Below, piece by piece: positions 11,332-17,910 of a DNA stretch of 36,514 nucleotides. The notes under the pieces are model-generated. The model did no database searches. It saw nothing but the letters and a program-made list of their open reading frames with translations, and was not told the DNA's origin. The stretch lies in the NCBI GenBank assembly GCA_947453715.1, contig CANGHX010000008.1:1-36514 (forward strand), written 5' to 3'. The stretch comes from Flavobacteriales bacterium. GTDB lineage: Bacteria > Bacteroidota > Bacteroidia > Flavobacteriales_D > Crocinitomicaceae. Each line of letters begins with the position of its first letter. Within the stretch, counting starts at the first letter, position 1. The translations under genes were made by a program, and so were the position numbers.

Positions 11332-11964
11332 TTAATGTTTCGCTAAGTAATCAGCAACTCCATCAAAACTAGCTGTCATTCCAGCATCTCCTTTTGTCCA
11401 GTTTGCAGGACAAACTTCTCCGTTTTCTTCGAAAAATTGTAATGCATCAACCATTCTTAAGGCTTCATCAACGTTTCTTCCTAATGGGAAGTTATTTACC
11501 AATTGGTGCATAACAACTCCATTTTTGTCAATTAAGAATAAACCTCTGTATGCGATCATTGGACCATTTGCAGTTAATTTACCTTCCATATCGTATTCGT
11601 ACTCTCCAGCTAAAACACCATAAGCTTCAGAAATTGTTTTATCTGTATCAGCGATAATTGGATAAGTTACTCCTTGAATACCACCTTGTTTTTTAGGAAC
11701 TTGTAACCATCCCCAGTGAGACTCTTCAGTATCTGTTGAAGCTGCAACAACTTTTGCACCTCTAGCTTCGAATTCAGCTAATTGCGCTTGAAATGCATGT
11801 AATTCAGAAGGACATACAAATGTGAAATCTTTTGGGTAAAAGAATAAAACCACTGGATTTTTTCCAATGAATTGATCTAATGAAAAATCTTTAACAATTT
11901 CTCCTCCGTTTACTACTGCAGCCGCTTTAAATGACGGTGCTTTTTTTCCTACTAAAACTCCCAT
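11332..11964 (-). CDS. Typical 2-Cys peroxiredoxin (AhpC/Prx1 group)
   Basis: Thiol peroxidase of 210 residues that reduces hydrogen peroxide and organic hydroperoxides in the cytoplasm. The peroxidatic cysteine is Cys51 in FYPKDFTFVCPSE, and the resolving cysteine is Cys185 in GEVCPANW, so both half-sites of the 2-Cys cycle are present. The downstream extension (DGVADYLAKH) is typical of the Prx1/AhpC class; no ahpF reductase is adjacent. A divergent oxyR gene lies about 0.5 kb away with one small gene between, which fits peroxide-inducible control. A TAAATTTG -7-like element lies at 12004-12011, in the gap before the gene, but its best upstream TTTG is 27 bases away, longer than usual. Confidence 0.95.
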   Translation of the reverse strand: MGVLVGKKAPSFKAAAVVNGGEIVKDFSLDQFIGKNPVVLFFYPKDFTFVCPSELHAFQAQLAEFEARGAKVVAASTDTEESHWGWLQVPKKQGGIQGVTYPIIADTDKTISEAYGVLAGEYEYDMEGKLTANGPMIAYRGLFLIDKNGVVMHQLVNNFPLGRNVDEALRMVDALQFFEENGEVCPANWTKGDAGMTASFDGVADYLAKH

Positions 11965-12054
11965 GTTTATTTTATTTATTATGATTATTAAAATTTACTT
12001 CCCCAAATTTAACGATAAAGCATTAATTAATTATTAAGCAAACCATTAAACATT

Positions 12055-12408
12055 TTATTTCTTTTCATTGTATAAATTATCATTGTAAGAACTGTTCATT
12101 ATTAAATCTGAGATAATTTCAGATTCAAAAACTCTTTTTATTTCTACAACATATTTTTTTTGTTTTTCTTTTATTAATTCTATCTCAATATTTTCATTAT
12201 CAGAAGCTTGATCAAACGTTTTTTTATTTGGCCAAAGTGCATATCCTAAAAATAAATTTGAATCGATCTTTTGCAACCTAGAACCTAAACTTCCTTCAAA
12301 CTTATAAATCAAATTAGTCAGCTCTTTCCAACTTTCGATAAACTCATTTTCAAATTCAGAATGAATTTTAAATGAATAAATAACTGAAAAGTTGTTTGAA
12401 TTTTCCAC
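12055..12408 (-). CDS. Small ABM-like (dimeric alpha/beta barrel) domain protein
   Basis: 117-residue soluble protein resembling the antibiotic biosynthesis monooxygenase (ABM) fold. The supporting pattern is an N-terminal strand (SVIYSFKIHSEFENEFIESW), a helix and the turn YKFEGSLGSRLQKIDSNLFLGYALWPNKKTF, then a final strand region. ABM-domain proteins include quinone- and heme-linked oxygenases and many stress proteins, so the catalytic role is unproven. The start codon is GTG (12406-12408); no upstream ATG exists in frame. The gene lies between the peroxiredoxin gene and the divergent oxyR, sharing an 82-base intergenic region with oxyR. An oxidative-stress role is inferred from position only. 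Confidence 0.68.
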   Translation of the reverse strand: MENSNNFSVIYSFKIHSEFENEFIESWKELTNLIYKFEGSLGSRLQKIDSNLFLGYALWPNKKTFDQASDNENIEIELIKEKQKKYVVEIKRVFESEIISDLIMNSSYNDNLYNEKK

Positions 12409-12490
12409 TGTAAAGATTTATACTGCAAAGATGTACATTTTACATATATTGTTTTTATTGATTATATTTATATTTCAATAGATAATTTTT

Positions 12491-13417
12491 ATGATTACAA
12501 TTCAACAGATGAATTACATCTTGGCTTTAAATGATACCCGTCATTTTCAGCGTGCTAGTGAGCAATGTTTTGTTACCCAACCAACATTATCGATGCAACT
12601 AAAAAAGGCAGAAGATGATCTTGGCTTTCAAATTTTTGACCGATCAACAAATCCACTATCATTGACAAATTTTGGGATGGAATTTATTCCTATCATCCGT
12701 GAAATCACCAATGATGTTTCTAAAATTGAACATCTAACTAAATCAATGAAAGGACTTTATACAGAAAAAATTAGAATTGGAATTATACCTACCATTTCCG
12801 CCTACTTGGTTTCTGATATGTTTAAAGTTTGGAAAGAAGAATTAATAAATTCTCAAGTAGTAATAAAAGAATTGAAAACAGAAGATCTATTAATCGCAAT
12901 TGAAAAAAAAGAAATTGACTTAGGAATATTGGCAGGACCGATAAATGAAACAAGTTTAAGAACAACTCCAATATTTAAAGAAGAAATAAAAGCATATATC
13001 AAAAATCATAAAGATTCAAAAATTTCATCGAGTTCGTTAAGTAAATTACATCCTTGGTTGTTAAGTAAAGGAAACTGCTTAAGAACGCAGATGGTACACT
13101 TTTGCAGTATCCAAACTGAAAAAGAAGATAATTGGAATTATGAAGGAGGAAATATTGAACTTTTAATCCGAATGGTTAATGAAAACGGAGGGTATACACT
13201 TATTCCGAGTGAACTAGAAAGGATTCTTAATCTTAAACCAACCGATTGTATTCAAATTTTTTCAGATGATGTAAATGAAAATCCAGCTCGTGAAATCATT
13301 GCAATTTCACCAAATAGATCAACAAAATGGAATTCTATCGAAAAAATAATTCGCTCTTGCCAACATTTTTACAATAAAATTGAAAACAAAAATCTAAAAA
13401 TATTGGATTGGAAATAG
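12491..13417 (+). CDS. oxyR: OxyR-type hydrogen peroxide-sensing LysR regulator
   Basis: LysR-family transcription factor of 308 residues. The N-terminal winged helix-turn-helix is clear (ALNDTRHFQRASEQCFVTQP, TLSMQLKKAEDDLG). In the C-terminal sensor domain the stretch GNCLRTQMVHFC places cysteines at residues 196 and 205. Their spacing of nine and surrounding LR-Q-x-x-x-F match the redox pair Cys199/Cys208 of E. coli OxyR, which forms a disulfide on peroxide exposure. This makes OxyR more likely than a generic LysR protein. It lies divergent from the ABM-like gene and near the 2-Cys peroxiredoxin, its probable target. Its TAG stop directly abuts the stop of the convergent di-heme gene. Confidence 0.9.
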   Translation: MITIQQMNYILALNDTRHFQRASEQCFVTQPTLSMQLKKAEDDLGFQIFDRSTNPLSLTNFGMEFIPIIREITNDVSKIEHLTKSMKGLYTEKIRIGIIPTISAYLVSDMFKVWKEELINSQVVIKELKTEDLLIAIEKKEIDLGILAGPINETSLRTTPIFKEEIKAYIKNHKDSKISSSSLSKLHPWLLSKGNCLRTQMVHFCSIQTEKEDNWNYEGGNIELLIRMVNENGGYTLIPSELERILNLKPTDCIQIFSDDVNENPAREIIAISPNRSTKWNSIEKIIRSCQHFYNKIENKNLKILDWK

Positions 13418-14776
13418 CTATAACGACTTCAAAAATTTAATTAAAGCAGCTCTGTCTTTAACATTTAACTTTTTAAAATAAAGTTTTGCATTTATAGCTT
13501 CACCCCCATGCCATAGTATAGCTTCTGTTAAATTTCTGGCTCTACCGTCATGTAAAAAATTACTATGTCCATTAACAACTTCGGTTAATCCAATTCCCCA
13601 CAAAGGTGGTGTTCTCCATTCGCTTCCATCGGCTAAATATTCTGTTCGATTATCAGCCAAACCTGCACCCATATCATGCAACAATAAATCTGTATAAGGA
13701 TATATTGTTTGATTTGAAATCGATTTAAAGGCAACATTCACAGCTGTTTTTTGCTTTGGAACATGACACTTCACACAAGAAGCTTCACTAAACAATTGTT
13801 TTCCCCGAATCACTTCTGAATCATTTACATTCCTTTTTGCTGGCACCCCTAATGTCTTTAAATAAAAAGTCAACGAGTAGATCAAACTATCGGATATCTC
13901 TTTTTGGACACCAAGATTTTGATTGTATAAATTATTTTCTATTGGGAATAAAAAGTTTGTTAAACCGATATCTTCTGAAAAAGCAAAACCTACTTGTTGA
14001 AGCAATGTTGGTGAACCTGCTTTCCACCCAAATCGCCCGATAGACATCTTTTGATCTTTTACATTCCATACTGAATTTGCCTTTCCTGATATTCCATCTC
14101 CATTTGAATCAAATAAATCTTGATTAGCTAACAAAGCCCATTCTGGAATTGCTTCTAATAATCCCAAACCGAAAACAGGTCTCGATAATCTAGGAGAAAT
14201 CATTGCGTCTGATGGAAATGACATATATGAATTTAGAATAGTAAAAGTTGGTTGTCGTAATTCATATAATTCACCGTCATCAAAATTTCCTTGTAAATAA
14301 GTATATGTAACACTTACGTTTCCTTCTGAGTTCATTCCAGCTATTGCTCTTGGTTGAAATTGTAATCCAAAATTAGGAACGGCTATAGGACCTCCATGCT
14401 CATTTTCTCCAGGAACACTAATCCTCAATAATAAATTATGGATATTATCTCCTTCTTTAGGTGAGATATTTCGACCATCGGAAGGATGACAAGAAACACA
14501 AGAAACAGCATTAAAAATAGGTCCTAAACCTGGATTTATTGGAGATGGCGAGCTTACAAAAGATGATTCAAAAAGTTTATCTCCTACTCCATGAATTAAT
14601 TCTTGAGCAGCGGTCAGACCATTAAATGTATTTGAGTATGCACCTCCACTTTGATCAAAAAAAGTTTGACTCCCTCCTAAATACCAATCTTTTTCGTCAA
14701 CAGTTTCAATTACTGCTGCCTTTTTACAACTTATTAAAACAATAACAATTCCAAAAAATAATAAAATATATTTCAT
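13418..14776 (-). CDS. Di-heme oxidoreductase (DUF1111/DHOR) lipoprotein
   Basis: Envelope c-type cytochrome of 452 residues in the di-heme thiol-oxidoreductase/peroxidase-like family. The signal peptide ends in a lipobox (GIVIVLISCKK), so the protein is probably a lipoprotein. Two heme-c sites are visible: CVSCHPSDGR near residue 92 and CVKCHVPKQ near residue 333. Family motifs near the end are present (FLHDGRARNLTEAILWHGGEA). The start overlaps the imelysin stop by 4 bases (ATGA), indicating translational coupling. It is the last gene of the porin-Rieske-imelysin operon. In other bacteria DHOR genes often sit beside imelysin genes in iron-regulated loci, so a role in handling ferrous/ferric iron or electron transfer is inferred. 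The catalytic reaction is not established. Confidence 0.9.
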   Translation of the reverse strand: MKYILLFFGIVIVLISCKKAAVIETVDEKDWYLGGSQTFFDQSGGAYSNTFNGLTAAQELIHGVGDKLFESSFVSSPSPINPGLGPIFNAVSCVSCHPSDGRNISPKEGDNIHNLLLRISVPGENEHGGPIAVPNFGLQFQPRAIAGMNSEGNVSVTYTYLQGNFDDGELYELRQPTFTILNSYMSFPSDAMISPRLSRPVFGLGLLEAIPEWALLANQDLFDSNGDGISGKANSVWNVKDQKMSIGRFGWKAGSPTLLQQVGFAFSEDIGLTNFLFPIENNLYNQNLGVQKEISDSLIYSLTFYLKTLGVPAKRNVNDSEVIRGKQLFSEASCVKCHVPKQKTAVNVAFKSISNQTIYPYTDLLLHDMGAGLADNRTEYLADGSEWRTPPLWGIGLTEVVNGHSNFLHDGRARNLTEAILWHGGEAINAKLYFKKLNVKDRAALIKFLKSL

Positions 14777-15846
14777 TTAATATAAGTATTAATAAAAGGT
14801 AATAATCTTGATTCTAATTCATCTCTTAGGTTATTAATGTCATCAATTGCATTTTGAACTTGAATAGGAGAATTAATAATTGCATCACCAAAAGAACTTG
14901 GTATTGCATCAAGAGCAGATAAAGCATTAGCGATTTTCGATTTTATTGTATTGTCGAGAGATAAATTATTTGCCCGAACAAGATCTTCTAGTCCTTTTCC
15001 GTCAACTGAGTATTTTCCTAAATAAACATTTTGAACACTTTTAATATTGTTTTTGAAATCAGTAATTGAATTAAAAGCAAACGGCGACTCTTCCAATAAT
15101 GGATCTTGTGCGACGAAAGGCTCTTTTATTTTTCCATTTGCTACCTCATCACAAATACCTATTAAGGCATTTACAATTTCTAAATATACCAAATTTAATG
15201 AAGTGTAAATTGGATTTGAAGAACTCGGACTTTTAAAATAATTAACATAATTAGTTGATACATTTACATCCCAACTCGTAACTAGTGAGTTTGTTAATTC
15301 CTTTAAATTTAGCGCTAAAGCTATCAAATAGGACTTTTCTCTACTCGTAAATTCAGAAACTGTTTTTGAACCATTTTGACCGAATAGCAAATATTCAATT
15401 GGATGAAAACCTTTCAAAGCATCATCTAACTCACTTATTTCAGTTGGAGAGAAAGAATTAGAACTTGCTAAAACAATCTCTAATGCATTATAATCAACAG
15501 GCCAAGTATCAATTCTTGGATCAATATTGTCTGTTGAAACAGGTCCATATAAAAACCCTTCAGATTGCTCCCAAATTTGTCGAGACTTTTTCCATAAATT
15601 TCTACAATTCGCTAATCCTTGTTCAGTTGGATTAGAATTAAAACTTTGAATTTCTGAATATAACACTATTGTTGTTTGAGCTAAATCATTATAAGAACTA
15701 ATGATAACATTGGTTGACAAATCAGCCAAAACTAATTTTTGAAGTTCTATAAATGATTCTGCTCTTTGCTCTTCATGATTGCTTTTTTTACATGAAAATA
15801 GTATGATTCCTATTAGGAAAACAAGGCTAACAAATTTAAAATGCAT
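14773..15846 (-). CDS. Imelysin family lipoprotein
   Basis: Envelope protein of 357 residues of the imelysin (M75, EfeO/IrpA-related) family, built from helical bundles. The characteristic GxHxxE motif is present as GFHPIEYLLFG near residue 148. The signal peptide ends with the lipobox IILFSCKK. Imelysin proteins, despite the peptidase name, are best known as periplasmic or surface iron-associated proteins; the His/Glu of the motif are the proposed metal ligands. The gene is tightly packed: the Rieske gene stops 1 base upstream and the di-heme gene overlaps its end by 4 bases. Paired occurrence with a DUF1111 cytochrome supports an iron-linked function. Confidence 0.9.
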   Translation of the reverse strand: MHFKFVSLVFLIGIILFSCKKSNHEEQRAESFIELQKLVLADLSTNVIISSYNDLAQTTIVLYSEIQSFNSNPTEQGLANCRNLWKKSRQIWEQSEGFLYGPVSTDNIDPRIDTWPVDYNALEIVLASSNSFSPTEISELDDALKGFHPIEYLLFGQNGSKTVSEFTSREKSYLIALALNLKELTNSLVTSWDVNVSTNYVNYFKSPSSSNPIYTSLNLVYLEIVNALIGICDEVANGKIKEPFVAQDPLLEESPFAFNSITDFKNNIKSVQNVYLGKYSVDGKGLEDLVRANNLSLDNTIKSKIANALSALDAIPSSFGDAIINSPIQVQNAIDDINNLRDELESRLLPFINTYIK

Positions 15847-15847
15847 T

Positions 15848-16282
15848 TTAGTTGTATTTAACCGTGATTAAATCATTTGATAATGTGACAGGAAATTCCT
15901 TTAAATTTTTAGATGCGGGAGTAGTAATTACTTTTCCACTTAAATCAAAAGTACTTCCATGTAAACCGCAAACAAAAGATGATTTTGTAGCAATTAATGA
16001 ATTATCTTGGTGGGTGCATTTTAATTCAAAAGCTTTAAACGTATTATCTTTTTGTTTTACCACTGCTACTTGATATTCCAATGATTTATCCTTAATAATT
16101 ACCATATTTGAATCCGGTACGAATGAGGAAATCGGCACTTTTAATTCGCCATTTGATAAAGTAGTCGAATAATAATTAAGTGGAGCACATCCTTCTAATG
16201 AAGAGGCCACTAACGAAATACCAACAATACTAGCACAAAGCTTACATGTCTCTCTTAAAAACTCTCTTCTATCTGTATTCAT
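15848..16282 (-). CDS. Tat-exported Rieske [2Fe-2S] lipoprotein
   Basis: Small Rieske iron-sulfur protein of 144 residues, probably an electron carrier on the periplasmic side. The cluster motif is complete: CTH near residue 89, then after 13 residues CGLHG (C-x-H ... C-x-x-H). The N-terminus has a twin-arginine motif (DRREFLRE) followed by a hydrophobic stretch and a lipobox-like LEGC. Export of the folded cofactor protein by Tat and lipid anchoring are both likely. It is too short for a ring-hydroxylating oxygenase and lacks the catalytic domain. It sits second in the operon, 4 bases after the porin stop and 1 base before the imelysin start. Pairing with the di-heme cytochrome suggests electron transfer between them (inference). 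Confidence 0.88.
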   Translation of the reverse strand: MNTDRREFLRETCKLCASIVGISLVASSLEGCAPLNYYSTTLSNGELKVPISSFVPDSNMVIIKDKSLEYQVAVVKQKDNTFKAFELKCTHQDNSLIATKSSFVCGLHGSTFDLSGKVITTPASKNLKEFPVTLSNDLITVKYN

Positions 16283-16286
16283 ACCA

Positions 16287-17495
16287 TTAAAAACTATATC
16301 CGATTCCTAAATTAATATAATGTTGTTGCTTAAAAAATGGCTGACTTTGAGGGTATGGATTGACTACTAATGCTTGATTTTGCTCACCTGTTAATCGATA
16401 ATAGTAATCTGCTTTTACAATAACTCCTTTATGAGGCTGAAATGAAATTCCTGTTACTAAATACTGCTGATTCAGCACTTTATTTTCGATGCCATTTTCA
16501 GGTAATTTTAAGTTTAAATTTAAATTTTCATAGCGTGCAAACAAGGTGAAATTTTTATCTGTTTTATGTAATAAATTGTAACCAATTTCAACATAATATC
16601 CAAGTATTTGTTCTGGTGTGTTATTGGCATATGCTCTATTAATTTCAAAAGCGTTTGAGATATTAACCAATGATGCTAATGCTTTTACAACAAAACCTTT
16701 ATTTCTATATTGAACATTAGCTTCAATTAATTCTACAGGTGTTCCAAATGAACCATAATCTAATTGCAAACTATCGGCCTCTCTTTTAGTCAAACCGGCA
16801 CTCCCTCCCAAATACCCGGAAAGTTGAAGCCTAAAATGACTTTTAAAATATAATAATGAACCATTTAATGCTAAGCAAGAAGCATTAGCTCCACTGCCTT
16901 CATATCTTCCGCCTCTTATGCCAGATCCACTTTCGAAACCAGCACTATTTAATCCATTCATTAATGCTAGTGTGTAATTTAATCCAGGTATTCTTATACT
17001 TGTTCCGTAGTAACCAATTCCAATCTCTCGCCAAGTTGCAGGGATAATAAATTGCTCAACAAATGGTCGATCATTTCCATTAAAAGTCGTTGGTAAATGG
17101 TTCTCATTGATCATTCCAATTCTCGGAATAAACAATCCAGCAGTTATATAATTAAAATGATTAATATCAAACTTTAAAAAAGCTTGTTCAATAGCAAATT
17201 CACCACCTAACTCACCACCTGCTACTTTAGCATCTTCAATTTCTAACTCTGAAAAAAAAGTGATTTTTTTATTGAATTTATGCCCAACAAACAAAACTAA
17301 ACGGTCAACATTTGCTGAAGCTTTCTTTTCCGTTAAATTATTTGAATACTTAACATTTCCGTAGCCTGAAATAACTGTAGTTGAATTTGTAGCAACTAAA
17401 CCTGCTGACAATGAATCTTCTCTTGTAAGTATTTGTCCAAATAAGGCATTAAAGGTTAAAAGGCTAATCGCAACTATTAATATATATTTATTCAT
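16287..17495 (-). CDS. Outer-membrane porin (phosphate-selective porin O/P-like)
   Basis: Outer-membrane beta-barrel of 402 residues, first gene of the operon. It has a signal peptide (MNKYILIVAISLLTFNALFGQ), alternating amphipathic strands throughout, and a terminal aromatic residue (INLGIGYSF), as expected for a barrel protein. Motifs such as FFSELEIEDAK, AGLFIPRIGMINENH and REIGIGYYG resemble the porin O/P-type family of Bacteroidota. No plug or TonB box is visible, so it is a diffusion channel rather than a TonB receptor. Its substrate is unknown; the Fur-like operators upstream suggest a metal species. The promoter, described separately, has both -33 and -7 elements. Confidence 0.82.
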   Translation of the reverse strand: MNKYILIVAISLLTFNALFGQILTREDSLSAGLVATNSTTVISGYGNVKYSNNLTEKKASANVDRLVLFVGHKFNKKITFFSELEIEDAKVAGGELGGEFAIEQAFLKFDINHFNYITAGLFIPRIGMINENHLPTTFNGNDRPFVEQFIIPATWREIGIGYYGTSIRIPGLNYTLALMNGLNSAGFESGSGIRGGRYEGSGANASCLALNGSLLYFKSHFRLQLSGYLGGSAGLTKREADSLQLDYGSFGTPVELIEANVQYRNKGFVVKALASLVNISNAFEINRAYANNTPEQILGYYVEIGYNLLHKTDKNFTLFARYENLNLNLKLPENGIENKVLNQQYLVTGISFQPHKGVIVKADYYYRLTGEQNQALVVNPYPQSQPFFKQQHYINLGIGYSF

Positions 17496-17514: not shown

Positions 17515-17542
17515 CAAATCTAGAATCATTCTAGATAAACAA
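17515..17542 (-). promoter_or_regulatory. Bacteroidota-type promoter of the porin-Rieske-imelysin-DHOR operon
   Basis: On the minus strand the -7 element TAGATTTG (17515-17522) matches TAnnTTTG exactly. A TTG (17540-17542) lies 17 bases upstream as the -33 element; a second TTG three bases further gives spacing 20. The expected start of transcription is near 17508, about a dozen bases before the porin ATG at 17495. Confidence 0.75.
17518..17536. promoter_or_regulatory. Fur-family-like operator, proximal copy
   Basis: A perfect 9-1-9 inverted repeat, ATCTAGAAT-C-ATTCTAGAT. The inner part, TAGAATnATTCTA, has the 7-1-7 geometry of Fur/PerR/Irr-type boxes. It fills the spacer between the -33 TTG and the -7 box and overlaps the -7 by five bases, so a bound protein would block RNA polymerase. 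Confidence 0.65.
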
Positions 17543-17543
17543 C

Positions 17544-17563
17544 AATACCATAAAAATGGTATT
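17544..17563. repeat. 20-base inverted repeat between the two operators
   Basis: An 8-4-8 perfect inverted repeat (AATACCAT, AAAA, ATGGTATT). It lies just upstream of the -33 element and touches the distal operator by one base. It could be a binding site for a second regulator or a chance A/T-rich palindrome. No function is assigned. Confidence 0.4.
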
Positions 17564-17579
17564 TTAGAATCATTCTAAA
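17563..17579. promoter_or_regulatory. Fur-family-like operator, distal copy
   Basis: A perfect 8-1-8 inverted repeat, TTTAGAAT-C-ATTCTAAA, sharing the TAGAATCATTCTA core with the proximal operator. The centres are 44 bases apart, about four helical turns, so the two sites face roughly the same side of the DNA. Confidence 0.65.
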
Positions 17580-17584
17580 TAAAA

Positions 17585-17614
17585 AAAGGGTTGCTAACTT
17601 AATAACAACCCTTT
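17585..17614 (-). terminator. Terminator of the 54-residue membrane protein gene
   Basis: A 9-bp perfect stem (AAAGGGTTG with CAACCCTTT) closes a 12-nt loop. Runs of A to the left give a U-tract on minus-strand RNA only. It separates the small membrane gene from the operator/promoter region of the porin operon. Confidence 0.8.
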
Positions 17615-17633
17615 AAATATGGTTTTAAAGAAA

Positions 17634-17798
17634 TTATTTTTCTTCTGTCTCTTCTTCGTCAAAAACTCTTTTCGGACGCATTTTTGCAAAAGCACCTAAT
17701 GTAATCCAATAAGGAACTACAAATCCTAATAAAAATAACAACATCCAAAATGCCATACCTGCTATTAAAAGAAATAATACTATACCGAAAATACTCAT
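17634..17798 (-). CDS. Small membrane protein, uncharacterised (54 residues)
   Basis: An ATG-started frame of 54 residues. Two closely spaced hydrophobic stretches (IFGIVLFLLIAGMAFWMLLF and LLGFVVPYWITLGAF) could form one long or two short membrane helices. A basic patch (KMRPKRV) and a very acidic tail (DEEETEEK) follow. The basic patch and tail would be cytoplasmic by the positive-inside rule. It is a real gene rather than a chance frame because a well-placed terminator follows 20 bases after its stop and the composition is strongly membrane-like. A TATCTTTA -7-like element lies about 30 bases upstream. I do not recognise a family or function. Confidence 0.68.
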   Translation of the reverse strand: MSIFGIVLFLLIAGMAFWMLLFLLGFVVPYWITLGAFAKMRPKRVFDEEETEEK

Positions 17799-17910
17799 GT
17801 CTCTTTATTTTAAATTCAATAATGTTGTAAAGATAATAATATTTTTAAAAAAAGATTAAAATTTAAGGTGAAAGTAAACATTAAGATAGTAAAAAAAATA
17901 ACTAAATTGA

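Follow-up and report, generated by a model that had tools for sequence, protein, structure and literature searches.

A conserved porin-Rieske-di-haem gene set of Bacteroidota, a candidate envelope module for obtaining redox-active metal during starvation

Genes for an imelysin and a di-haem protein of the DUF1111 family lie side by side in the iron operons PA4370-PA4373, IrpA and VC1264-1266 (PMC3143127). We analysed a stretch of 36,514 nt from a Flavobacteriales bacterium (contig CANGHX010000008.1, assembly GCA_947453715.1), hereafter called the window, in which such a pair is preceded in a four-gene operon by genes for a porin-like outer-membrane barrel and a Rieske [2Fe-2S] lipoprotein. In the described operons, as predicted for the window, the paired proteins are exported and their genes are iron- or Fur-regulated; the part of PMC3143127 available to us mentions neither a Rieske protein nor a porin of this kind, and in the window-type module the imelysin is optional. 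A preliminary description of the window operon had likened the pair to EfeO and IrpA. Such pairs are iron-regulated elsewhere (PMC3143127). The analogy with EfeO does not stand: the window imelysin was rejected as an EfeO, scoring 21.5 bits against a model cut-off of 270. The locus resembles EfeUOB in combining a periplasmic imelysin-type protein with a haem protein in a metal-uptake context, but a Pfam scan of the four operon genes found neither an EfeU/FTR1 permease nor a cupredoxin domain.

On balance, we favour the view that the gene set is a Bacteroidota envelope module which acquires redox-active metal under starvation, and that the window operon is one form of it. The metal link of the module is well supported, and the module probably helps cells to obtain iron or manganese; a redox step, and the direction of that step, we infer. 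Three things were obtained in silico: a conserved set of genes for exported proteins, operator-like boxes of the starvation type, and linkage to importers and sensors of divalent metals. The preliminary description knew of no account of a Rieske carrier and a porin in one operon with such a pair, and the literature we searched (supplements and most subscription journals lay outside the search) likewise held no description of a porin-Rieske-DHOR operon, DHOR being PF06537, the former DUF1111. Literature on MntR and manganese, and on Rieske, feoB and DtxR, contained nothing about this system. We regard the locus as a variant among the known uptake loci for iron and manganese, one whose redox-porin core is apparently undescribed.

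An order-wide search of 299 genomes with a Rieske profile gave 22 matches at E<=2.4e-15, of which 21 adjoined a porin gene, 19 a DHOR gene and six an imelysin gene; three weaker matches (L090, L091 and L094; loci and genomes carry our own L and G numbers) had none of the three beside them. Phylum-wide, 395 Bacteroidota genomes yielded 34 matches at E<=4.8e-25. A porin gene adjoined 33 of these and a DHOR gene likewise 33, the exceptions being L118, where the contig ends, for the porin and L119 for DHOR, and neither gene was found beside the seven weaker matches inspected (L131-L137, the strongest at 9.6e-25). Because the gene order is retained in further genera and families, the arrangement is not a matter of chance. 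The final set comprises 59 classed loci: 12 of type A, which have the window layout porin-Rieske-imelysin-DHOR (in one the porin end is off the contig), 41 of type B, which read DHOR-Rieske-porin without imelysin, and six of type C, which consist of porin-Rieske alone. Both type A and type B are present in G006, a genome of the window's own genus. The families of the window operon do occur together; porin, Rieske and DHOR form the core of the module in Bacteroidota, and imelysin is optional. As the core of the system imelysin was rejected, being absent from 41 of the 59 loci (type B) and from the nearest relative of the window, L032.

In L032, whose Rieske protein is 93% identical to that of the window, the OxyR-like gene that adjoins the window operon lies 19 bases behind porin-Rieske, so that imelysin-DHOR is missing at the very same site. 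In a Rieske tree of 68 rows, types A and C form one group (86/87, not starred) in which C is scattered within A with four label changes, a pattern that fits repeated loss of the imelysin-DHOR half; nine rows labelled "other" split off (98/92), and the type B row L130 falls in with these nine. Four genomes have porin-Rieske without any DHOR match (G315 and G316, for which completeness is not given, G099, and G281, counted once with G318), and three of the four also lack an imelysin match. G317 carries porin-Rieske at one place and, elsewhere, porin-imelysin-DHOR without Rieske; this second locus has two Fur-like boxes, both perfect. Imelysin-DHOR pairs with no porin or Rieske gene within flanks of 1.5 kb were found at L015, L019, L026 and L030.

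The preliminary description had proposed the operon as a candidate for iron responsiveness, and the promoter bears this out to the extent that the operon is predicted, with support from the box counts, to lie under Fur-like operators in an iron-regulon promoter. Boxes were scored against the Riemerella Fur consensus, which was predicted in PMC5609570; according to the accessible part of that paper, Riemerella Fur bound promoters with putative boxes in an electrophoretic mobility shift assay, and the Fur table includes an imelysin. With up to three mismatches allowed, the matches in the window are exactly the two boxes of the operon, ATCTAGAATGATTCTAGAT and ATTTAGAATGATTCTAAAA, and two or more matches arose in 5 of 100 shuffles of the window. 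At the same threshold, a box is present at the promoters of 6 of 11 type A loci (shuffle mean 0.20) and 4 of 5 type C loci (shuffle mean 0.08); that of L069, located 244 bases upstream, may instead serve a divergent HmuY-like gene. The window's own genome holds 137 such sites compared to 74 for the reversed control, and about half of the weak ones may be noise. Thirteen other sites of this genome, with one or two mismatches, were inspected: one each precedes a gene for SufA, superoxide dismutase (SOD), a multihaem cytochrome and a disulphide isomerase family protein, and the remaining nine have nothing evidently iron-related downstream.

A second operator, AATACCATTTTTATGGTATTG, overlaps the putative promoter: the TTG at its end doubles as the promoter TTG, 20 bases before TAGATTTG, which fits the Bacteroidota -7 element TAnnTTTG. 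The palindromes of the relatives are mostly accompanied by a Fur-like box. With at most one mismatch, AATACC-N8-GGTATT occurs in 8 of 12 type A promoters (L169 included), in 4 of 5 of type C and in none of 40 of type B, the shuffle means being 0.05, 0.00 and 0.03. Only two exact sites exist in the own genome, one at the window operon and one beside sufA, where a further Fur-like box is close by. At least one exact site is present in 107 of 120 genomes of the family, compared to 6 of 120 for the reversed control. We inspected 31 loci with this box, namely the two of the own genome and 29 returned by the family search. Five concern porin(-Rieske) genes, 14 DUF4856-like or imelysin genes, three HmuY-like secreted proteins and one a TonB receptor; six adjoin Fe-S assembly genes (five with sufA across a near-symmetric box), and two are unclear. 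Eight representative genes of these loci and the own-genome sufA were identified with Pfam; of the two HmuY-like proteins scanned, one gave a match to HmuY and the other to a secretion tail only. DUF4856 is probably an iron-starvation protein, because a Fur-like box accompanies the AATACC box at its genes; both boxes were seen with genes for a DUF4856-like lipoprotein, an imelysin or the two together at L181-L186, L189, L196-L198, L200-L202 and L206. As a reader of the AATACC box, the Bizionia regulator MliR is a candidate by function only. It is described as an activator, and its loss lowers the transcripts of Rieske, cytochrome c, imelysin, SOD and TonB-receptor genes (PMC9478572, available part), the first three being among the strongest losses in this iron-regulator mutant.

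Type B promoters carry a box of their own, TTTAG-N6-CTAAA. With one mismatch allowed it is found in 26 of 40 promoters and 18 of 30 genera (shuffle mean 1.43), and at other spacings in 0-3 loci. It also stands, without mismatch, just before DtxR in all four further DtxR loci inspected, one of them in the own genome, so that DtxR genes and the type B trio have this operator-like box in common. The own-genome locus (L139, 5986-10493) is a DtxR-ZnuA-ATPase-permease operon of the ABC-3 kind preceded by the N6 box, and one of its ABC-3 permeases is fused to a DtxR-type metal-binding domain.

Among the known systems, FeoAB, MntH/Nramp and ZnuA/ABC-3 under DtxR/MntR control share gene runs with the type B trio: an importer (FeoB, Nramp or ZnuA/ABC-3) lies inside the run in 6 of 41 loci. 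Neighbours were identified with Pfam for L098, L122, L129 and L130, and for the other loci by similarity to these proteins. L122, L123 and L130 have the co-directional order DtxR - DtxR/FeoA - FeoB_N - FeoB_C - DHOR - Rieske - porin, and L118 has the same run of DtxR, split FeoB, DHOR and Rieske with the porin end off the contig. In L098, DHOR-Rieske-porin is followed by ZnuA and ABC-3 permease genes, with FeoB and a divergent DtxR on the other side, the DtxR protein resembling SloR, ScaR and other metal-dependent regulators of known structure; in L129 the trio is followed by Nramp and DtxR. There are 75 DtxR-type matches in the 57 module genomes. A DtxR gene within 6 kb of the module was found in 12 of these genomes (12 genera) against 0.25 expected, and FeoB_C was equally close in 5 of the 57 (0.17 expected), kinship between genomes being ignored in both expectations. 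We know of no description of outer-membrane or periplasmic redox parts as components of these uptake systems.

The ions taken in by FeoB, Nramp and ABC-3 systems are divalent, and for this reason we prefer a reductive direction for the proposed redox step; moreover, cells short of iron should build iron-rich proteins only if these bring a return. The opposite direction would make DHOR an oxidase of Fe2+ and imelysin the binder of the resulting Fe3+, as proposed for Efe/FTR1-type systems. This is suggested by the position of imelysin beside DHOR in type A, and PMC3143127, in its available part, does compare imelysin-DUF1111 pairs with EfeUOB. We nevertheless consider oxidative capture quite improbable, as the type B majority has no adjoining imelysin and the importers found in the runs are those for divalent ions. 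No EfeU/FTR1 gene was noticed beside the operons, though no search aimed at one was made.

The first gene had been described as an outer-membrane porin, a designation that is retained here as a distant relationship. The window protein has no Pfam match at E<=0.001 and scores 17.5 bits against Porin_O_P (PF07396), below the cut-off of 20.9, but 4 of the 27 homologues from the operons match that family at E<=0.01, and L070 scores 21.0. Across all types, the residues R65, E83, E85, E87, E103, N130, H133, R143, P152, T154 and R321 are identical in 27 of 27 aligned operon porins, and E99 and D241 are kept in 25. The alternating glutamates E83-x-E85-x-E87, if on one strand, should face the barrel lumen and would favour cations. 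For comparison we took ten other Porin_O_P matches, found in 6 of the 10 module genomes searched: the full acidic set recurs in one of them, L166, which is slightly below the cut-off, and much of it in L165. The acidic set is thus a mark of a subfamily and is not exclusive to the operons described here. The match with the full set is a solo porin preceded by Fur-like boxes; at L167 (7217-8395), a solo porin of this subfamily, outside any Rieske operon, was noted with two such boxes upstream. Plasmids of Haliscomenobacter hydrossis and Hymenobacter radiodurans are named carriers of the module; their third gene is annotated as hypothetical, yet it matches the porin profile at 5.4e-148 and 4.4e-132, respectively. 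On the Hymenobacter radiodurans plasmid (L172), DHOR is annotated as two overlapping open reading frames (ORFs), possibly through a frameshift or a sequencing error, and a ferritin gene lies beside it.

The other three window proteins were assigned to the families named in the preliminary description with Pfam scores well placed above their cut-offs: 48 against 20.3 bits for Rieske (PF00355), 195.6 against 23.5 for imelysin (PF09375, Peptidase_M75) and 336.1 against 22 for DHOR. The imelysin motif GxHxxE is G146-F-H148-P-I-E151, and the two CxxCH motifs of DHOR span C93-H97 and C334-H338; G146, H148 and E151, as well as both haem motifs, are invariant in an alignment of four genus members. The Rieske protein has a Tat RR and an invariant Cys32, its ligands C89, H91, C105 and H108 are invariant, and both imelysin and DHOR have SCKK lipobox-like ends; the export signals were read from the sequence. 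A structure-sequence search matched the imelysin to the solved imelysins 3n8u and 4ecg, and found no solved chain for DHOR at E<=0.01. The AlphaFold models of DHOR (pLDDT 29.5) and of the porin (pLDDT 48.5, strand-rich) were too poor to use.

These features also bear on a respiratory role, in which the Rieske protein would serve in complex III, or porin and cytochrome would form an outer-membrane wire like MtrAB. In Bizionia, a Rieske and a cytochrome c gene with neighbouring tags, together with an imelysin, fall together in the MliR mutant; the authors, in the available part of PMC9478572, take the Rieske protein to be that of complex III and the pair to be respiratory. This pair may correspond to the DHOR-Rieske of type B. 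A respiratory role for the module is barely credible in our judgement. The window Rieske was rejected as a complex III protein, as it scores 29.2 against the cut-off of 97.4 for the bc1 model TIGR01416 and has CTHQ and CGLH without the disulphide cysteines (which some type B Rieske proteins do carry), and the window operon has no cytochrome b gene beside it. An MtrAB-like conduit was rejected because DHOR has two CxxCH only and the barrel is just 400 aa long.

Returning to the uptake module, we can sketch how it might work. In type A, iron shortage would switch the operon on through the Fur-like boxes and the second iron-regulon operator. The porin would admit metal ions or small complexes across the outer membrane, with its glutamate row lining the lumen, and the Rieske lipoprotein and di-haem DHOR would act as a periplasmic electron-transfer pair that alters the oxidation state of the metal, most likely through a reduction that yields the divalent ion from Fe(III) or, in type B, from Mn(III/IV). 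The divalent ion would then be taken up by FeoB, Nramp or ABC-3 importers. The type A imelysin, going by its family, may bind or hand over iron. In its most specific form, which we put forward tentatively, the proposal is that DHOR-Rieske-porin is dedicated to reductive metal acquisition: a cation porin with a di-haem/Rieske reductase making Fe2+ or Mn2+ for FeoB, Nramp or ABC-3, wired to Fur and an activator acting at AATACC-N8-GGTATTG in type A, or to an MntR-like regulator in type B. How metal crosses the outer membrane to reach the ferrous and manganous importers of Gram-negative bacteria, and how it is kept reduced for them, is largely an open question. A conserved porin and redox pair that in certain genomes shares operons with FeoB, Nramp and ABC-3 makes this question testable. 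If true, the scheme would assign a function to DHOR and to the small Tat Rieske lipoproteins, neither of which has a settled role, would bear on the reason why imelysin and DHOR travel together, and would reveal that a Bacteroidota iron regulon has a second operator.

Several observations weigh against the uptake module. Two haems and a 2Fe-2S cluster make for costly proteins under iron shortage. The scored box is absent from 5 of 11 type A promoters (no Fur-like box within three mismatches at L073, L075, L124, L126 and L127, nor at L119 of type C) and from 14 of 40 type B promoters. With the queries used, no importer gene was seen beside the module in 35 of the 41 loci of type B or in those of type A, and there is no FeoB match in the window's own genome (92.7% complete) or in ten others of the 57 module genomes. 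Since porin-Rieske occurs without a DHOR match in four genomes, DHOR cannot be the sole electron partner. One order-wide match, in G292, has no porin, DHOR or imelysin; it is a Rieske fragment of about 60 residues (L080, 8221-8468) just behind an exact AATACC box, and is possibly a relic of an operon of type A or C. A melting assay on two imelysins of solved structure showed no binding of haem or of ferric ion (PMC3143127, available part). Finally, DHOR is annotated in Pfam as a "putative peroxidase", and strong matches to CusA/CzcA-type efflux genes lie near ten type B loci and on the two plasmids.

The efflux genes could mean that the module serves metal detoxification, or a redox step linked to efflux rather than uptake. 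We hold this to be highly unlikely: type A is without such linkage, save for a weaker match in L124, and operators of the Fur-like and DtxR-like kinds normally turn genes on when metal is scarce, not when it is plentiful.

The peroxidase annotation leads to the main rival, in which DHOR would be a periplasmic di-haem peroxidase fed by the Rieske protein, removing H2O2 during Fe2+ or Mn2+ intake and so avoiding Fenton damage. The surroundings of the window operon agree with it, as genes for an OxyR-like regulator and a peroxiredoxin lie next to it, the stop of the OxyR-like gene abutting that of DHOR. A 117-aa protein that matches no Pfam family is encoded in the same block (11332-13417), which adjoins the operon. 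This block is retained in L032 and L092, and L036 has its OxyR part before the contig ends. Among the loci examined, OxyR is a neighbour only in these three and the window, and it was therefore rejected as a general regulator of the module. The boxes that were identified belong to the metal-starvation type (peroxide-response operators were not searched for), and porin-Rieske exists without DHOR. A peroxide guard is, in our view, an unlikely explanation, though one to be kept in mind.

Table 1. Features of the window operon and its promoter region.
Feature	Position	Strand	Remarks
Porin-like outer-membrane barrel, first gene	16287..17495	-	402 aa; distant Porin_O_P relation
Rieske [2Fe-2S] lipoprotein, Tat-exported	15848..16282	-	144 aa; CTH...CGLH, disulphide cysteines absent
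Imelysin (PF09375) lipoprotein with GFHPIE	14773..15846	-	357 aa
Di-haem DHOR (PF06537, former DUF1111) lipoprotein, two CxxCH	13418..14776	-	452 aa
Fur-like box, perfect 19-bp palindrome ATCTAGAATGATTCTAGAT (minus strand)	17518..17536		consensus match
Upstream Fur-like box ATTTAGAATGATTCTAAAA (minus strand)	17562..17580		consensus match
TAGATTTG, putative promoter element, overlaps Fur-like box	17515..17522	-	TTG 20 bases before
Second operator AATACCATTTTTATGGTATTG, palindrome AATACC-N8-GGTATTG, between the Fur-like boxes	17543..17563	-	conserved in relatives
Terminator-like hairpin upstream of operon promoter	17585..17614	-	1 found vs shuffle mean 0.1

The ORF coordinates confirm the close packing of the four minus-strand genes given in the preliminary description, with gaps of 4 bases and 1 base and an overlap of 4 bases. 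A small ORF, read by eye on the minus strand (about 17615-17800), encodes a membrane-like protein of about 54 residues; it is situated between the terminator-like hairpin and the gene that comes next. Two public records of metagenome-assembled genomes, titled Chryseobacterium gleum and Actinomyces viscosus (L032 and L036), have contigs syntenic with the window and the OxyR-like neighbour in common with it; the Rieske protein of L036 is 51% identical to that of the window, compared to the 93% given above for L032, and both titles look wrong.

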